Shown one piece after another: positions 11,533 through 46,359 of a stretch of DNA of 64,000 bases. The notes under the pieces were generated by a model. It had not been told where the DNA came from, searched no databases, and worked only from the letters and a program-made list of their open reading frames with translations. This stretch comes from Flavobacterium lacustre. Lineage in GTDB: Bacteria > Bacteroidota > Bacteroidia > Flavobacteriales > Flavobacteriaceae. Made by a program: the position numbers and the translations under genes. The DNA is taken from the NCBI RefSeq assembly GCF_027474525.2, contig NZ_CP114882.2:2170001-2234000 (forward strand). The letters are read 5' to 3'. Position 1 is the first letter of the stretch; each line of letters starts with the position of its first letter.

Positions 11533-11538
11533 GTTTTT

Positions 11539-11620
11539 TAGCCCCGATAGTAATGGAAATCCTTTTTATCAGCTTTTTCGGCTGGTAAAAAGATTGTAAC
11601 GAATAGCGGGAAACAGCTTC
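11539..11620 (+). ncRNA. Dispersed structured intergenic element, copy 1
   Basis: This 82-bp element starts TAGCCCCGATAGTAATGG and ends GGGAAACAGCTTC. A central hairpin has arms 11563-11573 and 11581-11591 (AUCAGC pairing with GCUGGU, extended by a U5/A5 stem). Copy 3 (46223-46306, minus) keeps the flanks almost unchanged but has a different stem (AGUUCUGA with UCAGGACU). Copy 2 (30608-30685) is more distant. Conserved flanks with paired changes in the stem point to a selected structure, either an RNA or a mobile palindromic element. It may belong to a known Bacteroidota RNA motif such as Flavo-1, which I cannot test here. Confidence 0.6.
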
Positions 11621-29420: not shown

Positions 29421-30182
29421 TTATCGAATTGCTTTTACAAATTCTTCAATTTTTCCAGTACCATTTTCGGTTAAATGTGTAATGAATGCGCTACCAATAA
29501 TTGCTCCTTTAGCAAATTGAGTGGCTTGATTGAAGGTTTCTGCATTGTTGATTCCAAAGCCTATTACTTGTGGATTTTTCAAGTTCATTGCGGCAATGCG
29601 TTTGAAATACTCTTCCTGAACGCTGCCAAAACCAGATTGTGAACCCGTAACACTGGCGGAACTTACCATATAAATGAATCCATCGGATACGCTGTCTATA
29701 AAATGAATGCGCGCGTCAGATGTTTGTGGTGTGATTAAGAATATATTTTTCAATCCGTATTGCTCAAAAGTCGCTTTAAATTCATCGGCATATACATCAA
29801 CCGGAAGATCAGGAATGATTAATCCGTCGATGCCAATTTCGGCACATTTTTTACAGAAATTCTCTATTCCGTATTGTAACATTGGGTTGAAATAGCCCAT
29901 GATTACTAACGGAATTGATACCGTTTTACGAATTTCTTTTAGTTGGTCAAACAACACTTGAGTCGTCATTCCGTTATGCAATGCTTGAGTAGAACTTGCT
30001 TGAATGGTTGGTCCATCGGCCAAAGGGTCGCTGAACGGTAATCCGATTTCAATCATGTCCACACCGCTTTTTTCTAAATCCTGAATGATTTGTACCGTGT
30101 CATTCAAGTTGGGATAGCCTGCAGAGAAATAGATGGAAAGGATCTTTTTGGTTTCTTGTAATTTTTGATTTATGCGATTCAT
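29421..30182 (-). CDS. trpA: Tryptophan synthase alpha chain
   Basis: TrpA splits indole-3-glycerol phosphate to indole and glyceraldehyde 3-phosphate and passes indole to TrpB. The 253-residue TIM barrel shows the catalytic Glu and Asp in MIEIGLPFSDPLADGPTIQ, then YFNPMLQYG and the phosphate-binding GFGINNAE. It is the last gene of the trp operon, separated from trpB by an AIG2-like gene and a structured element. Confidence 0.97.
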   Translation of the reverse strand: MNRINQKLQETKKILSIYFSAGYPNLNDTVQIIQDLEKSGVDMIEIGLPFSDPLADGPTIQASSTQALHNGMTTQVLFDQLKEIRKTVSIPLVIMGYFNPMLQYGIENFCKKCAEIGIDGLIIPDLPVDVYADEFKATFEQYGLKNIFLITPQTSDARIHFIDSVSDGFIYMVSSASVTGSQSGFGSVQEEYFKRIAAMNLKNPQVIGFGINNAETFNQATQFAKGAIIGSAFITHLTENGTGKIEEFVKAIR

Positions 30183-30233
30183 TGTTGTCTGTTTTTATCA
30201 GATTGAGCCTCTGTTTTTTGAGTTTGTACTAAT

Positions 30234-30554
30234 TTAGGTGGTCGCGGTATATACCCAAGCCGTTTGATTGGATTGCAATTCCACTTGAATGCGTTTGTAA
30301 TGTAATCCTTCATAAGTATCGGCTTGTTGCAGTTGTATTTCGGTTAGTTCATACAGTATTCCGCTGATGGTGTCTTCCGGATTATGGGTTGGCGTAATGA
30401 TTGGATACTGTGCAAATCCAAATTCTTCTTCGATATGAATTTCATTGATAACATAACCAACTAATGTTTCGGGAGTTCCTTTGAGTATTCGGCCAAAAAT
30501 AGTTTCTTGAATGTCTTTGTCTTTTAGGGTACCGTAAGCAAATAATTGTTCCAT
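30234..30554 (-). CDS. Gamma-glutamylcyclotransferase/AIG2-like protein
   Basis: The 106-residue protein has the GGCT-fold start LFAYGTLKDKDIQE (YGTL phosphate-binding motif, 6-9) and the catalytic-region glutamate in LQQADTYEGLHYKR. Members cyclise gamma-glutamyl groups or remove them from modified amines. The substrate is unknown. The gene lies between trpB and trpA on the same strand, 51 bp before trpA, and must be transcribed with the operon unless it has its own promoter. No link to tryptophan synthesis is known. Confidence 0.85.
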   Translation of the reverse strand: MEQLFAYGTLKDKDIQETIFGRILKGTPETLVGYVINEIHIEEEFGFAQYPIITPTHNPEDTISGILYELTEIQLQQADTYEGLHYKRIQVELQSNQTAWVYTATT

Positions 30555-30607
30555 GTTTTTTTGTTTTGAAAAAGTTATTTTAAATTCAAATCGTTTCGTT
30601 TAGCATT

Positions 30608-30685
30608 GCGCGTTAGGGATGGAAGCAGCATCCTTTTTTGTCCCGTTTTTTCGGGGCAAAAAAGATAGAGCGTACAGCCCGACCC
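30608..30685 (+). ncRNA. Dispersed structured intergenic element, copy 2 (divergent)
   Basis: The element reads GCGTTAGGGATGGAAGCAGC, then a hairpin (arms 30634-30645 and 30652-30663, GUCCCG with CGGGGC plus a U6/A6 stem), then GATAGAGCGTACAGCCCGACCC. The plan CATCC-T5/6-stem-A5/6-GAT-AGCG matches copies 1 and 3, but the flanks have diverged. It lies antisense inside the trp operon, between trpB and the AIG2-like gene. A small hairpin (30698-30712) follows it. Confidence 0.5.
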
Positions 30686-30722
30686 TTGTGGTAACGCCCT
30701 GAAAAATTCAGGATAAACCGAA

Positions 30723-31904
30723 CTACAATTTGAAATAATCAATATAAGTATTCAAATCTTTGTCGCCGCGACCGGAAAGATTCAAGACCACGATATCCTC
30801 TGGTTTGAATTTCATTTCGTCCAGAACAGCAAAGGCGTGCGCACTTTCGATTGCCGGAATAATTCCTTCCATTTTTGAAAGTTGCAATCCCCAATTCATA
30901 GCTTTTTCATCGGTTATTGAAATGAATTGTGCTCTTCCTGTGGCAAATAAATTAGCGTGCATCGGGCCAACTCCAGGATAATCTAAACCTGCCGAAATAG
31001 AATACGGTTCGGTGATTTGACCATCTGTAGATTGCATCAACAAGGTTTTACTACCGTGAATCACACCAATTTTACCAAGGGCAGAAGTTGCGGCACTTTC
31101 GCCTGAATCTACGCCTAAACCGGCTGCTTCTACGGCAATGATGTTGACGTCTTTTTCGTCCAAAAAGTGATAATAAGCCCCGGCAGCATTGCTTCCGCCA
31201 CCTACGCAGGCAATCACATAATCAGGATTTTCACGGCCTTCTTTTTCTAATAATTGGGCTTTTATTTCCTTAGAAATAACACTTTGAAAACGCGCCACCA
31301 TATCAGGATAAGGATGCGGTCCTACTACAGAACCAATGATGTAATACGTATCAACGGGATTGTTGATCCAGTCTCGAATGGCTTCGTTTGTAGCGTCTTT
31401 CAGCGTTCGTGAACCCGACATCGCAGGACGAACTTCGGCACCTAACATTTTCATACGAGCCACGTTTGGCGCTTGACGTTTAATGTCAATTTCGCCCATA
31501 TACACAATACATTCCAGTCCCATCAAAGCACAAACGGTAGCCGTAGCCACGCCGTGTTGTCCAGCACCGGTTTCGGCAATGATTCGTTTTTTACCCAAAC
31601 GTTTGGCTAATAAAATCTGTCCAATCGTATTGTTTACTTTATGTGCTCCGGTATGGCATAAATCTTCTCTTTTGAGGTAGATTTTAGTATTGTATTTTTC
31701 AGATAATCGAGTGGCAAAATACAGCGGAGTAGGGCGCCCTACATAATCTTTTAGCAAATCATCAAACTCTGCCTGAAATTCTGGTTCAGCAGTAATTTTT
31801 AGATATTGTTGGCGTAATTCTTCTACGTTTGGATATAACATTTCAGGAATGTAGGCTCCTCCAAATTCTCCGTAATAGCCTTTTTCGTTGACGTTGTAAC
31901 TCAT
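30723..31904 (-). CDS. trpB: Tryptophan synthase beta chain
   Basis: TrpB condenses indole with serine using pyridoxal phosphate. The 393-residue protein has the PLP lysine in HTGAHKVNN (K89), the indole-site glutamate in [12 protein letters not shown] and the phosphate cup [10 protein letters not shown]. The C-terminal [10 protein letters not shown] is also typical. It follows trpF by 49 bp. That gap holds a G/T-rich repeat tract similar to the one before ddl. The AIG2-like gene and trpA follow. Confidence 0.98.
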
Positions 31905-31945
31905 TTTTTAGGTTTTTGATTCTGGGTTTCAGGTTTTGGGTTGTT
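31905..31945. repeat. Degenerate G/T-rich tract before trpB
   Basis: The tract is built from TTTAGG, TTCTGGG and TTTCAGG words and ends at the trpB start codon, where the sense strand reads CCTAAAAAATG, exactly as before ddl. It appears to be a decayed relative of the 14-bp repeat at 11478-11532. Confidence 0.45.
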
Positions 31946-31953
31946 GATTTATG

Positions 31954-32577
31954 CTACAACTCAAAACGTTCAACCATTAACTTTAATAATTCGATGTTTT
32001 TTAATCCTGATTCAATTTCAAATTTACTATTTATATCAATAGCATATATTGGCAGATTAGTTTTTGAAATTTCTTGTATTGATTTGATTTCCTCTAATCC
32101 GATTCCGCCACTCAGGAAGAACGGTTTTACAGAAGGATAGTTCTCTAATACTTTCCAGTCGAAAGTGGTTCCGTTACCTCCCGGTAATTTTCCTTTAGTG
32201 TCAAAAAGGAAATAATCACAAACGGTTTCAAATGGTTTTAAAACTTCAAAATCGAAGTCATCAGCTACCGAAAATACTTTGATGAATTCTATTGAAGCGT
32301 GTATTTTGCTTTTTAAATCGGAACAAAATGCAACCGATTCCTGTCCGTGTAATTGAATGGCTTGTAAATCATATTTTTGGGCTTTCGCCAAAATTATATC
32401 GGTGCTTTCATTGACAAAAACGCCTACTTTTTTGATTGATTTTGGTAAATCAGGCATTGTTCCATCAAAATACCGAGCCGATTTCTCCCAAAATATAAAC
32501 CCCATATAATCGGGTAGGAGCGAACCTACTTCGAGTATATTATCGGGATATTTCATGCCACAGATTTTGAGTTTCAT
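31954..32577 (-). CDS. trpF: Phosphoribosylanthranilate isomerase
   Basis: TrpF converts phosphoribosylanthranilate to CdRP. The 207-residue TIM barrel starts MKLKICGMKYPDNI, with the catalytic Cys in the CG(M/L)K motif. It also shows YMGFIFWEKSARYF, LQAIQLHGQES and the acid residue and phosphate-binding segments LFDTKGKLPGGNGTTFDW and PFFLSGGI. It lies 2 bp after trpC and is a separate gene, unlike the E. coli trpC-trpF fusion. Confidence 0.96.
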   Translation of the reverse strand: MKLKICGMKYPDNILEVGSLLPDYMGFIFWEKSARYFDGTMPDLPKSIKKVGVFVNESTDIILAKAQKYDLQAIQLHGQESVAFCSDLKSKIHASIEFIKVFSVADDFDFEVLKPFETVCDYFLFDTKGKLPGGNGTTFDWKVLENYPSVKPFFLSGGIGLEEIKSIQEISKTNLPIYAIDINSKFEIESGLKNIELLKLMVERFEL

Positions 32578-32579
32578 TT

Positions 32580-33359
32580 TTATAATTTTGATATAAATTC
32601 GGTTGCTGCTTTACCTGCATTATCGGTTTTCATAAAGTTTTCTCCAATCAAAAATCCTTTGTAACCAAAAGGTTTTAATTCATTAATGGCTTCCACAGAC
32701 GAAATACCGCTTTCGGAAACTTTTACGAATTCGTTTGGAATTTGGTCTGCTAATTGTTTACTGAAATCCAAGCTTACTTCAAAAGTTTTTAGGTTTCTGT
32801 TGTTGACACCAATCATGTCTAATGTTGGCATAATTGATTTTTCTAATTCTTCTTGATTGTGAACTTCTAATAAAACTTCCAGTCCTAAACTTTTGGCAAA
32901 TTCAGATAAGGATTTGATTTCGTCTCGAGTTAAAACTGCGGCAATCAGCAAAATTAAATCGGCTCCATGCGCTTTGGCTTCTAAAATTTGGTATTCATCA
33001 ACAATAAATTCTTTTCTCAAAAGTGGAATATTTACTGTGGCTCTTGCCAAAAGCAAATCGTCTAAAGAACCACCAAAATACTTACCGTCTGTCAATACCG
33101 AAATACCGCAAGCACCAGCATTTTCATAACCTTTTGTTACTTCTTCAACGGTAAAACTATAATTAATTTCCGCTTTGGATGGCGAACGGCGTTTGTGTTC
33201 GGCGATAATTCCTGATGTGCTGTTTCTTAGATTCTGACTCAAAGAAATAATTTTTTTTCCAAAGAAAACGGATGCTTCCAATTGCGAAATCGGAATAATG
33301 GATTTCTTCAGAATAACTTCTCTTCTTTTGTCAATTATAATGCTATCTAGAATGTTCAT
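32580..33359 (-). CDS. trpC: Indole-3-glycerol phosphate synthase
   Basis: TrpC closes the indole ring from CdRP. The 259-residue TIM barrel shows the family motifs IIAEHKRRSPSKAEIN (catalytic Lys and Glu region), SVLTDGKYFGGSLDDL, PLLRKEFIVDEYQI, IGVNNRNLKTFEV and VSESGISS. It lies between trpD and trpF. Confidence 0.97.
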   Translation of the reverse strand: MNILDSIIIDKRREVILKKSIIPISQLEASVFFGKKIISLSQNLRNSTSGIIAEHKRRSPSKAEINYSFTVEEVTKGYENAGACGISVLTDGKYFGGSLDDLLLARATVNIPLLRKEFIVDEYQILEAKAHGADLILLIAAVLTRDEIKSLSEFAKSLGLEVLLEVHNQEELEKSIMPTLDMIGVNNRNLKTFEVSLDFSKQLADQIPNEFVKVSESGISSVEAINELKPFGYKGFLIGENFMKTDNAGKAATEFISKL

Positions 33360-33412
33360 TTTTTTAATTTAAAGATTGAAAAATTTAAATAACTTTAAAT
33401 TCCCCACTATTT

Positions 33413-34405
33413 TTATTTGCTTAACTCTTTTAATTTGTTCAAAGCTACAAGTCCTTTTCCGGATAATAAACTTTCTTTCGCTATTTGAAATCCTTCTAAA
33501 GGAGAACATTTTGTTACTGTTGCAATTGCCATGGCAGCATTTGCACAAACTACGTTGTTTTGAGCTTCGGTTCCTTTTCCGGAAATAATATCGGTAAACA
33601 TTTGTGCAGATGCTTCGATGGTTGTTCCGCCTTCGATTTCGCTTTGCAGCAAAAGCCGAACTCCAAAATCTTCAGGTTTCAACATTCCTTCCATAGCAGG
33701 GGTGATGATTTTAGTTGGACAAGTCAACGAAACTTCATCATAACCATCTAATGAATGTAAAATGGTGAAATTAGTATGGGTGTTTTGATACAAATAAGCA
33801 TACATTCTGGCCAATTCTAAATTAAAAACACCGACTAATTGATTTTGTGGAAACGATGGATTTACCATTGGTCCCAACATATTGAAAAAGGTTTTTACGG
33901 CTAGTTCTTTTCGGATTGGCCCAACATTTTTCATGGCAGGGTGGAAAAGAGGAGCGTGTAAAACACAAATTCCCGCTTGGTCGATACATTTTTCCAGAAA
34001 ATCAGCATCATTACTGAACTTGATTCCCATTTTTTCCATCACGTTACTAGAACCTGAAATAGAAGAAACTCCGTAATTCCCGTGCTTGGCCACTTTGATT
34101 CCTGCTCCGGCTGCCACAAAAGAAGCCAAGGTCGAAATGTTAAAAGTGTCTTTTCCATCACCACCTGTACCACACAAATCAATCGTGTTATACGCAGATA
34201 AATCCACGTGAATACACAATTCTAATAACGCTTCTCTAAAACCAGCCAATTCATCAATACTAACGCTTCGCATCATATAAACGGTCAGAAAAGCGGCAAT
34301 TTGACTCGTGTTGTAACTTCCGTTGGAGATATTAACCAAAACGTTTTTGGCTTCTGCTTTCGAAAGCATTTCGTGATTGATAAGTCTGTTTAATATATTT
34401 TTCAT
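33413..34405 (-). CDS. trpD: Anthranilate phosphoribosyltransferase
   Basis: TrpD transfers the phosphoribosyl group of PRPP to anthranilate. The 330-residue protein has the PRPP loop DLCGTGGDGKDTFNIST, KHGNYGVSSISGSSNVMEKMGI and the metal-site segment HSLDGYDEVSLT. It is a stand-alone enzyme, not fused to trpG. It sits third in the operon. Confidence 0.97.
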   Translation of the reverse strand: MKNILNRLINHEMLSKAEAKNVLVNISNGSYNTSQIAAFLTVYMMRSVSIDELAGFREALLELCIHVDLSAYNTIDLCGTGGDGKDTFNISTLASFVAAGAGIKVAKHGNYGVSSISGSSNVMEKMGIKFSNDADFLEKCIDQAGICVLHAPLFHPAMKNVGPIRKELAVKTFFNMLGPMVNPSFPQNQLVGVFNLELARMYAYLYQNTHTNFTILHSLDGYDEVSLTCPTKIITPAMEGMLKPEDFGVRLLLQSEIEGGTTIEASAQMFTDIISGKGTEAQNNVVCANAAMAIATVTKCSPLEGFQIAKESLLSGKGLVALNKLKELSK

Positions 34406-34450
34406 TGAAAAAAGTATTCTTAAATGTTATAAAGTCTTTTGATAATCGGA

Positions 34451-35017
34451 TTAATTTTTAACCCAGTTTTCTAAAATCTTTTTTCCGTTAGGTGTCAACA
34501 CACTTTCCGGATGAAATTGTACTCCACGAACATCGAACGTTTTGTGACGTAAGGACATGATTTGACCATTTTCGTCTAATGAAGTTGCTTCAAGAACCTC
34601 CGGCAAATTAGCGTCAACTACCCAGGAATGGTAGCGTCCCACTTCAAATTCATTCCCTAATCCTTCAAATAAAAGTTCATCATCAACGACCGTTTTTACA
34701 TTTGTAGCCACGCCGTGATACACTTTATCTAAGTTAGAAAGCGTTCCTCCGTACACTTCTCCAATGGCTTGTTGTCCTAAACAAACACCAAAGATACTTT
34801 TTGTAGGACCATATTTTTGAATCACTTCTTTTAATAATCCTGCTTCATCCGGAATTCCAGGTCCAGGAGAAAGCAATATTTTATCGAAAATTGCAATTTC
34901 ATCAATATCAAATTCATCGTTTCGGTACACCGTTACTTCGCAATCTAAATCTTCCAGATAATGCACTAAATTATAAGTGAAACTATCGTAATTGTCTATG
35001 ACTAGTATTTTTTTCAT
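34451..35017 (-). CDS. trpG: Anthranilate synthase component II (glutamine amidotransferase)
   Basis: TrpG supplies ammonia from glutamine to TrpE. The 188-residue class I amidotransferase has the oxyanion strand LLSPGPGIP (48-56), nucleophile C79 in GVCLGQQ, and the H169/E171 pair in QFHPES. The start MKKILVIDNYDSFTYN is standard. In many bacteria the same protein also serves 4-amino-4-deoxychorismate synthase; I cannot tell here. Confidence 0.96.
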   Translation of the reverse strand: MKKILVIDNYDSFTYNLVHYLEDLDCEVTVYRNDEFDIDEIAIFDKILLSPGPGIPDEAGLLKEVIQKYGPTKSIFGVCLGQQAIGEVYGGTLSNLDKVYHGVATNVKTVVDDELLFEGLGNEFEVGRYHSWVVDANLPEVLEATSLDENGQIMSLRHKTFDVRGVQFHPESVLTPNGKKILENWVKN

Positions 35018-35052: not shown

Positions 35053-36453
35053 CTAAATGGTTTCGGCTAAATCTAAAGCGGCATTCAACGCTCTTAATTT
35101 ATTGTATACTTCCTGCATTTCACTTTCTTCATCTGAGCTGGCAACAATTCCGGCTCCTGCCTGAGAATGCAATTGATGGTTTTTACTTAGGAACGTACGA
35201 ATCATGATGGCGTGATTAAAGTTCCCTTCAAAATCCATAAAACCAATGGCGCCTCCATAAAAATTACGATTTGTTTTTTCATAATCTTCAATCAGTTGCA
35301 TTGCTCTGTGTTTTGGCGCGCCGCTCAAAGTTCCTGCTGGAAATGTGTCGGCTACCACTTGCATGGTTGTTGCTTTTTCGTGCAAATGTCCTGTCACTTT
35401 TGAAACCAAGTGAATGACATGAGAGAAGAATTGTACTTCTCTGTATTTTTCTACATTCACATTGTGACCGTTTCGGCTTAAATCGTTTCGGGCTAAATCG
35501 ACCAACATGACATGTTCACTATTTTCTTTTTTATCGATGGCCAATTCTTTGGCAAGAATAGCATCTTTTTCATCATCACCCGTTCTTTTGAAAGTACCTG
35601 CAATAGGATGAATTTCGGCTTTACGGTCTTTTACAATAATCTGTGCTTCTGGCGAAGAACCAAATATTTTGAAATCGCCGTAGTCAAAAAAGAACAAATA
35701 AGGGGAAGGATTAATGCTTCTTAAAGCGCGATACACATTGAATTCATCACCTTTAAAACCTTGTGTAAATCTTCGGGATAATACCAATTGGAATACATCT
35801 CCTCTAAAACAATGCTTTTTGGCCAAAGCCACATTGTGCTTGAACTCATCGTCTGTCAAATTCGAAAAACCTTCTCCATCTTTAGTGAATTTATACGAAG
35901 CAATGTTTCGGGATTGTAATAGTTGTTCAATTTCGGCAATATTATTTTTCCCGTCTAAGCTGTGGCAAAAAATATATGCTTCATTTTTGAAATGATTAAT
36001 GGCAATAATGTTTTGGTACACGGCATAATACACGTCCGGAATTGTATTGCTATTTTCTTTTTTGGCAATGCTTACTTTTTCAAAATAACGAACCGCATCG
36101 TATGAAATATAGCCAAACAAACCATTATTTATGAATTTGAAATCATTTTTCTCTGATTTGAATTGCCCTGAAAACTCCTGAATTACTTCCGGGATATTGG
36201 TATTGGCATCAATGGCAATGTTTTCAGAACTTCCATCAGGAAATGTTTTTGAGATGATTTCGTTCTCTATTTTTATTGAAGCAATCGGATTGCAACAGAT
36301 GTAAGAGAAACTATTGTCATTCCCATGATAGTCACTACTTTCTAATAATAAGCTATTCGGGAATTTGTCGCGAATTTTTAAATATACACTTACCGGAGTA
36401 ATGGTGTCGGCAAGTATTTGCTTGTATTTTGTATTTAGTGTAAAAGATTTCAA
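35053..36453 (-). CDS. trpE: Anthranilate synthase component I
   Basis: TrpE makes anthranilate from chorismate with ammonia from TrpG. The 466-residue protein has the N-terminal LLLES element (35-39) that forms the feedback site for tryptophan. The chorismate-binding part shows FQLVLSRRFT, SPSPYLFFFDYGDF-like text (residues NPSPYLFFFDYGDF), HPIAGTFKRTGDD and FPAGTLSGAPKHRAM. It is the first structural gene of the operon and is preceded by a leader peptide and attenuator, so expression is probably controlled by tryptophan both at the enzyme and at transcription. Confidence 0.97.
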   Translation of the reverse strand: MKSFTLNTKYKQILADTITPVSVYLKIRDKFPNSLLLESSDYHGNDNSFSYICCNPIASIKIENEIISKTFPDGSSENIAIDANTNIPEVIQEFSGQFKSEKNDFKFINNGLFGYISYDAVRYFEKVSIAKKENSNTIPDVYYAVYQNIIAINHFKNEAYIFCHSLDGKNNIAEIEQLLQSRNIASYKFTKDGEGFSNLTDDEFKHNVALAKKHCFRGDVFQLVLSRRFTQGFKGDEFNVYRALRSINPSPYLFFFDYGDFKIFGSSPEAQIIVKDRKAEIHPIAGTFKRTGDDEKDAILAKELAIDKKENSEHVMLVDLARNDLSRNGHNVNVEKYREVQFFSHVIHLVSKVTGHLHEKATTMQVVADTFPAGTLSGAPKHRAMQLIEDYEKTNRNFYGGAIGFMDFEGNFNHAIMIRTFLSKNHQLHSQAGAGIVASSDEESEMQEVYNKLRALNAALDLAETI

Positions 36454-36496: not shown

Positions 36497-36529
36497 AAAA
36501 AAAAGGCCTGTCGTGATGACAAGCCTTTT
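36497..36529 (-). terminator. trp attenuator (intrinsic terminator in the leader)
   Basis: On the minus strand, AAAAGGCTTGTC, a 5-base loop and GACAGGCCTTTT pair with one G-U pair and run into eight T. The segment TCACGAC (36510-36516), in the loop and right arm, is complementary to GTCGTGA at the end of the leader reading frame (36565-36571). Stalling of a ribosome at the Trp codons would leave that segment free to open the terminator. Confidence 0.85.
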
Positions 36530-36564
36530 ATATTTATAGTTTACTAATACTATAGGAGCTTTGT

Positions 36565-36621
36565 TCACGACGACTGACGTAAATTGTTCCACCACCAAGT
36601 ATTGTTTGTTATTGATTTCAT
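36565..36621 (-). CDS. trpL: trp leader peptide with three consecutive Trp codons
   Basis: An 18-codon frame reads MKSITNNTWWWNNLRQSS and stops 36 bp before the attenuator hairpin. Three adjacent TGG codons (36589-36597) in so short a frame are very unlikely by chance. The frame begins about 18 bp after an exact promoter -7 box and sits in the correct place before trpE. This is the classic design for ribosome-mediated attenuation: low charged tRNA-Trp stalls the ribosome at codons 9-11 and allows read-through into trpE. The peptide itself probably has no function. It is too short for standard gene callers. Confidence 0.85.
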   Translation of the reverse strand: MKSITNNTWWWNNLRQSS

Positions 36622-36638
36622 AATGATTTTTGTTGCAA

Positions 36639-36668
36639 CAAATATATAAAGGATATTCGATTATTCAA
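36639..36668 (-). promoter_or_regulatory. trp operon promoter
   Basis: TTG (36666-36668), a 19-bp spacer and TATATTTG (36639-36646) on the minus strand match the Bacteroidota consensus. The expected start point leaves a leader of only about 10 bases before the trpL ATG. Confidence 0.75.
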
Positions 36669-36671
36669 ATA

Positions 36672-36710
36672 CAAAAAAACGAAAAAAAATATATTTTTTT
36701 CGTTTTTTTG
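36672..36710 (-). terminator. Terminator after clpB
   Basis: A perfect 17-bp inverted repeat (36672-36688 and 36694-36710) around a 5-base centre consists of A/T runs split by a CG pair. It lies 28 bp after the clpB stop codon and directly before the trp promoter, insulating the two. Confidence 0.85.
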
Positions 36711-46222: not shown

Positions 46223-46306
46223 GGAGCTATTTCCAGCTATCCGTTACAATCTTTTTAGTCCTGAAAAAATCAGAACTAAAAAGGATTTTCACTACTATCT
46301 GGGCTA
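46223..46306 (-). ncRNA. Dispersed structured intergenic element, copy 3
   Basis: Read on the minus strand, the element starts TAGCCCAGATAGTAGTGAAA and ends GCTGGAAATAGCTCC. A central hairpin has arms 46252-46264 and 46270-46282 (AGUUCUGA with UCAGGACU plus U5/A5). Outside the stem it is nearly identical to copy 1 at 11539-11620, including ATCCTTTTT before and AAAAAGATTGTAACG after the stem. It is in the same direction as uvrA and the LOG gene and lies between them. Confidence 0.6.
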
Positions 46307-46359
46307 GGGCATCCTGTTTTAATTCCACATTTTTATTAAAATTACATAAAGTAATGAAA

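Follow-up and report, generated by a model that had tools for sequence, protein, structure and literature searches.

In the trp attenuator of Escherichia coli, a four-segment leader carries Trp codons, and a stalled ribosome decides between an antiterminator and a terminator, with an extra protecting helix. A further family of trp leaders, Bacteroid-trp (Rfam RF01692), was published as a row of Table 1 in Weinberg et al. 2010 (PMC2864571), and a 2019 paper noted it upstream of trp in F. psychrophilum (PMC6414381). No functional test of this family was found in the open-licence literature. For the same species, a transcriptome paper of 2021 described signs of leader-peptide attenuation in 5′ regions before amino-acid operons, and named pheA and hisG elements that have no Rfam match (PMC9723704).

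The DNA analysed here is a stretch of 64,000 nucleotides from Flavobacterium lacustre, referred to as the window. An earlier note on it had read, upstream of trpE on the minus strand, a promoter TTG-19-TATATTTG, an 18-codon frame with three tandem Trp codons (WWW) and an intrinsic terminator with a T8 tail, and had remarked that GTCGTGA at the end of the frame is perfectly complementary to TCACGAC in the terminator. All these parts were recovered base for base at the same positions (Table 1), and the complementarity is exact over 7 bp. The note had also called the element unannotated. That term does not apply to this kind of element, since the family has been in print since 2010: the RF01692 covariance model matches over model positions 1–131 with 70.8 bits, above its cut-off of 49 bits. 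The element has the WWW frame, the position upstream of trp genes and the long-range helix AATACT/AGTATT (6 pairs), called H1 below. Its genome contains one RF01692 copy, and no second copy of the cassette, the two relaxed matches observed being at the level of the reversed-pattern control. We give a probability of about 0.87 to the reading that the element is an RF01692 Trp attenuator placed before trpE, in which ribosome stalling at WWW is predicted to cause read-through of the terminator. As judged from the sequence, the trp genes would be transcribed mainly when tryptophan is scarce.

Table 1. Parts of the trp leader and of the operon behind it (window positions).
Feature	Position	Strand	Basis or remark
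-33-like TTG, Bacteroidetes-type promoter	36666..36668	-	19 nt from -7 element; read from sequence
-7 element TATATTTG (TAnnTTTG)	36639..36646	-	read from sequence
Whole promoter TTG-N19-TATATTTG	36639..36668	-	sequence
Leader frame MKSITNNTWWWNNLRQSS, 18 codons	36565..36621	-	ATG 36619-36621, TGA 36565-36567
Three tandem Trp codons TGGTGGTGG (control codons)	36589..36597	-	sequence
Rfam RF01692 Bacteroid-trp match	36518..36641	-	70.8 bits, cut-off 49
H1 5′ strand AATACT, codons N7-T8 directly before the Trp codons	36598..36603	-	covariation
H1 3′ strand AGTATT	36546..36551	-	covariation; Rfam consensus helix
Antiterminator 5′ strand GTCGTGA	36565..36571	-	conserved pairing in relatives, shuffle test
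Antiterminator 3′ strand TCACGAC (loop and first three right-arm bases)	36510..36516	-	conserved pairing in relatives, shuffle test
Inner antiterminator extension AAGCT	36557..36561	-	predicted partner GGCTT 36521-36525 (left arm); minimum-energy folds
Local hairpin TATAGT/ACTATA overlapping H1 3′ strand	36535..36554	-	folds
Intrinsic terminator AAAAGGCTTGTC(ATCAC)GACAGGCCTTTT	36501..36529	-	12 pairs, loop ATCAC
T8 tail of terminator	36497..36504	-	sequence
trpE (anthranilate synthase I), first gene behind leader, TTG start	35053..36453	-	
Operon remainder: trpG, trpD, trpC, trpF, trpB, GGACT-domain frame, trpA	29421..35017	-	

In the window, TGGTGGTGG occurs once versus 0.25 times expected, and at least one occurrence was seen in 23 of 100 shuffles. 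The terminator, the sole one found within 1.2 kb (0.5 expected), folds over 31 nt with −16.4 kcal/mol (z = −7.45). The promoter motif has four matches in the window versus 2.5 expected, and the match by itself is weak evidence. Among the 234 leaders collected (see below), TAnnTTTG is found at most 60 nt upstream of 228, window included, versus 5.8% of shuffled upstream sequences. The leader stop is separated by 111 nt from the start of trpE, whose best family is TIGR00564 (441.8 bits, under the curated cut-off of 517.7). The apparent start codon of this gene, TTG (36451–36453), is aligned in 80 named relatives with 72 TTG, 6 ATG, 1 GTG and 1 other codon, and appears to be a conserved weak start. 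A likeness between the beginnings of the leader peptide (MKSITNNT) and of TrpE (MKSFTLNT) in the window was taken as chance, because the trpE starts of relatives differ, the commonest being LKPFILNT.

The surroundings of the leader hold further elements. A small gamma-glutamyl cyclotransferase-like frame (Pfam GGACT, 30234–30554, minus strand) lies between trpB and trpA. Three Flavo-1 RNAs (RF01705), of unknown function, are present in the window, at 11536–11617 (+), 30598–30688 (+) and 46226–46309 (−), and one of them is located between trpB and the GGACT frame, oriented against the trp operon. An A/T-rich inverted repeat, CAAAAAAACG...CGTTTTTTTG (36672–36710), seen by eye between clpB and the trp promoter, is possibly the clpB terminator.

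For the comparison with relatives, 234 of 235 leaders were kept, L001 being the window itself and L232 being removed as a spurious frame. Double changes, H1, folding and the antiterminator permutation were studied on 111 of them, about one per genus (a few genera twice), all found as RF01692 matches and therefore a selected set. An alignment of 48 thinned leaders consisted of the window and 47 of 108 leaders after a similarity filter.

The antiterminator pairing was considered first in the window alone, where a 7-bp Watson-Crick run between the segment following the Trp codons and the loop plus right arm of the terminator was reached by 24 of 5000 dinucleotide shuffles. In the same register, 109 of the 111 leaders have at least six contiguous standard pairs (G-U allowed), and 776 of 999 antiterminator cells are paired, versus 215–494 when the strands are slid by one to three bases. 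For the 48 thinned leaders, 91.6% of the cells pair (6–59% when slid), three pairs are changed on both sides, which 2 of 500 shuffles reach, and the covariation score was reached by none of 500 shuffles. Double changes that keep the pairing include GTCGCAAT/ATTGCGAC in L229 and GTCGAT/ATCGAC in L190. The alignment of relatives, proposed as a check by the earlier note, thus returned conserved Trp codons and rare double changes preserving the pairing, and the antiterminator of a ribosome-sensed trp attenuator that the note had proposed is supported by both conservation and compensatory changes. In the window the pairing may extend inward by AAGCT:GGCTT, as suggested by the folds (duplex of −15.2 kcal/mol); the letters of this extension are not kept in many genera. 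A protector hairpin TTTACG/CGTGAA, picked by eye as an analogue of the E. coli 1:2 pairing, was dropped because its loop in L042 would be two bases. Upstream of the antiterminator motif, the bases TTACGTC (36576–36582) are strongly conserved across many genera, and most of the lysine leaders described below keep them too; none of the three helices uses them.

H1 was tested by swapping its 5′ strands among the 111 leaders, in anchored position. The summed pairing was 1104.2 for the native combinations versus 1044.5 (sd 10.3) for the permuted ones, and none of 500 permutations reached the native value. Covariation is illustrated by CATACT/AGTATG (L194) and AATACA/TGTATT (L154, L159 and L188), with further pairs AACAA/TTGTT (L189) and ACTAA/TTAGT (L190), and the helix falls within the Rfam consensus helix. 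Some leaders hardly form it, L228 among them. The MAFFT alignment did not place H1 in register: 70.9% of its cells pair, and sliding by −2 raises the covariation score from 0.078 to 0.189. That result was ambiguous, so the anchored test was relied on. As GTCGTGA lies inside H1 and its partner outside, H1 and the antiterminator are mutually exclusive in a nested fold, and H1 would, from this arrangement, guard against antitermination. The earlier note had proposed a simple two-state switch, shorter than the four-segment E. coli leader; since H1 covaries and excludes the antiterminator, that picture lacks one part.

How the three helices might work together can be described as follows. When tryptophan is plentiful, the ribosome would reach the stop codon and cover GTCGTGA, which would free AATACT; H1 could then close, the terminator would fold, and transcription would end before trpE. 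When tryptophan is scarce, the ribosome would stall on TGGTGGTGG and occupy AATACT, so that H1 would not form. The free GTCGTGA would pair with TCACGAC as soon as the latter leaves the polymerase, blocking the terminator in time, and the operon would be transcribed. With no ribosome, many relatives are predicted to form H1 with GTCGTGA enclosed in its loop, which would make termination the default; this protection is absent from the folding model of the window's own RNA. The complete terminator has a higher predicted stability than the antiterminator, so that any switching would need to be kinetic, taking place during transcription.

Nested folding was computed at the critical length, with the loop and the first right-arm bases out. 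With a Trp codon in the A site, the antiterminator probability averaged 0.93–0.94 over the 111 leaders and exceeded 0.5 in 107–108 of them. Without a ribosome, the mean was 0.24, with H1 at 0.60, and 24 of the 111 leaders exceeded 0.5. A ribosome at the stop codon gave 0.00, both as the mean of the 111 leaders and in the window, a value that results from masking and is not a prediction. The window's own RNA at the critical length reached 0.60–0.64 when stalled and 0.70 without a ribosome, with H1 at 0.00, and thus shows no gain in antiterminator from stalling in this model. Once the transcript is full-length, the terminator prevails whatever the state of the ribosome, with at least 0.90 in the window and a mean of at least 0.98 over the 111 leaders. 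Each of the three alternative helices is supported by comparison of relatives; the fold of the window's own leader shows no protection when no ribosome is present.

These folds bear on the alternative that survives best, a pure two-state switch in which only the position of the ribosome on GTCGTGA matters and no third helix takes part. It shares the real 7-bp antiterminator with our reading, and agrees with the absence of H1 at critical length in the window's own folds. It is nevertheless unlikely, as it leaves unexplained the covariation of the two H1 strands between genera, which none of 500 permutations reached, and the drop of the mean antiterminator probability of the 111 leaders to 0.24, with H1 at 0.60, when the ribosome is removed.

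Permutation of the whole antiterminator over the 111 leaders gave no signal (776 versus 775.2), because both strands hardly vary, and the strongest argument for this pairing is therefore its independence of the reading frame. The TCGTGA strand is retained in 226 of 234 leaders. It holds the leader stop codon in 173 cases, follows it in 29, precedes it in 24 (inside the frame or in another frame) and is absent in 8. In L135 the frame is shifted after WWW, giving a peptide ending in ...WWWGKFTSNVVK, yet ATTTACGTCAAACGTCGTGA is kept. L143 and L146 read the motif in another frame, and the leader frames of L062, L111, L130 and L131 stop before it. What is conserved behind the Trp codons is thus the nucleotide sequence, and selection in those leaders appears to act on the bases rather than on the peptide. 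This makes it highly improbable that the leader peptide itself acts, by a TnaC-like arrest of the nascent chain or in trans. Such a role would account for the ending NLRQ(T/S)S, strongly conserved inside the genus, but not for motif bases that survive the frame shift, the other frames and the early stops, nor for ten lysine versions with other control codons (see below).

Distribution of the family was examined at three levels. RF01692 matched 78 of the 121 genomes sampled in the genus, 275 of the 397 in the family and 27 of the 247 in the phylum; genomes with a match over the cut-off numbered 77, 241 and 25, respectively. A TrpE at least 73% identical is encoded by 75 of the 121 genomes of the genus sample, and all 75 have an RF01692 match 39–304 nt upstream on the same strand. 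The 34 leaders read among these all contain WWW; the other 41 were matched by RF01692 and not read. All 80 named loci have a WWW frame ahead of trpE. Of the 234 leaders, which were selected for WW, 232 have WWW and 2 have WW. The other three genus genomes with a match (G019, G057 and G071) have WW/WWW leaders directly before a trpB. L236, L238 and L239 are Trp leaders directly before a trpB that shares 67–69% identity with the window's gene; their genomes lack a close trpE.

Nine more genus genomes encode a TrpE at 42–53% identity. An RF01692 match precedes trpE in none of the nine, and all nine operons (L240–L248) have a WW/WWW leader of other sequence with a terminator behind it. Altogether, 84 of the 84 genus-sample genomes with a TrpE at 42% or more thus carry either an RF01692 match or a WW leader before trpE. 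In L244 and L247, two of the divergent operons, a pair of Trp leaders occurs in tandem, and each of the pair has a terminator to itself. Antiterminator-like matches in the 11 leaders of the divergent operons were mostly weak, the best being reached by 5 of 500 shuffles and the worst by 408 of 500.

In other phyla, trp genes are regulated by TRAP-like, T-box or riboswitch leaders, and this precedent speaks for a leader that responds to a protein or a ligand and contains the frame only incidentally. Such a leader is less probable still than an acting peptide: the gathering-level Rfam scan of the window gives only RF01692 here, with no riboswitch or T-box, and a WW/WWW frame is present before trpE in all the named loci and in all nine divergent operons. 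No enteric trp leader family was found at the element in the Rfam scans either. Least probable of all is a constitutive terminator between clpB and trp with a WWW frame arisen by chance, which would suit the strength of the terminator and its success in all full-length folds, but not WWW before trpE in 80 of 80 named loci, the retained TCGTGA strand, or the WW leaders, different in sequence, that the nine divergent operons carry.

The Trp attenuator is a member of a known family, and the new part is a lysine version of the cassette in relatives. The pattern TCGTGA-N25-55-GGCYTGTC-N3-8-GACARGCC matched 77 of the 121 genomes in the genus sample and 239 of the 397 in the family sample; the reversed control matched none of the genomes listed. 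Thirteen family-level matches were fetched among the matches listed: 11 were Trp leaders before trpE and 2 were Lys leaders before lysC. A second, looser Lys pattern, for which the chance level given by the reversed control is one match each in several genomes, led to Lys leaders before lysC for 8 of 10 genus matches and 2 of 9 family matches. The remaining matches were not followed by lysC, and the bases examined there showed no cassette; one of the Lys-pattern matches (L286) is inside a distant aspartokinase-like coding frame. The window's own genome had no match to the Lys pattern.

Both patterns together gave Lys leaders in ten Flavobacteriaceae genomes among the matches listed (L237, L255, L256, L257, L261, L262, L282, L284, L287 and L288), each directly before lysC. 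Their peptides include MNTWIIKKGKKQYLRRTS, MYQIKTNKVKKQYLRPTS and MIEIYNIKKQKKSYLRHRS, typically KKxKKxYLRxxS; L261 and L262 have no ATG start. Behind each is a full-length relative of the L256 aspartokinase (56–63% identical in the other nine), and the L256 gene was confirmed as an aspartate kinase, followed by a diaminopimelate decarboxylase. Six of six core antiterminator pairs (G-U allowed) are present in all ten, as is TAnnTTTG upstream. None of the ten reaches the RF01692 cut-off of 49: two scored 46.2 and 36.4 bits, and eight were unlisted at E up to 1. A trp-trained model (R1) matched all ten, at 35.3–66.5 bits, with nine above the best antisense match (37.1); L288, at 35.3, is not separated, because terminator-only antisense matches reach 37.1. 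Folded without a ribosome, five of the ten Lys leaders favour the antiterminator from the outset (at least 0.76), as does the window's leader. G019, G057 and G071 have the Lys version in addition to the Trp version before trpB.

These comparisons make it probable that Bacteroid-trp is one setting of an attenuator cassette with exchangeable codons, whose Lys version at lysC, with the antiterminator and terminator letters unchanged, would make lysine synthesis depend on charged tRNA-Lys. A ribosome-sensed lysine attenuator of this kind would be absent from Rfam. No printed lysC leader was found in the open-licence literature, supplements aside, and one may be in print elsewhere; the main text of the 2021 F. 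psychrophilum paper does not mention lysC, and its section 19 is without an antiterminator model (PMC9723704).

The comparison of relatives leads to a concrete model with named bases, for the pairing that would open the terminator as well as for the helix that would guard it, and sequences of natural relatives separate the function of the peptide from that of the RNA. The lysine version suggests that one RNA switch can be re-aimed at another amino acid through a few codon changes, which makes the evolution of attenuators testable, and it offers a hypothesis of how lysine synthesis may be regulated at those loci, for which no Rfam family is over the cut-off.

The cassette is not general, since the leader of hisG in the window's own genome is of another design. 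Upstream of this gene (L291), a His-rich leader MLSIQLHHHHSHYCSQAMC (HHHH) is followed by a terminator-like hairpin with a T run, and there, as judged by eye and counting G-U pairs, CTCAAGCG can pair with the left arm CGTTTGAG; letters and register differ from those of the trp leader.

With the Rfam family, the window's leader has in common the position before trp genes, the frame with Trp codons and the consensus helix H1. The RF01692 model ends at the left arm of the terminator and draws only the H1-type helix, whereas the pairing of the antiterminator with the loop and the right arm, and the way in which it competes with H1, were worked out here. The presence of H1 brings the logic closer to the E. 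coli set of alternative helices, since both leaders have Trp codons and an antiterminator competing with a terminator, and in the window's leader, too, the ribosome is predicted to stall and an extra helix would protect against antitermination. The differences lie in the strands employed. In E. coli the antiterminator takes the left arm alone, whereas in the window its partner is chiefly the loop together with the beginning (5′ end) of the right arm, the left-arm part being weaker; the antiterminator strand of the window's leader overlaps the stop codon, and its presumed protecting helix uses codons upstream of the Trp codons.
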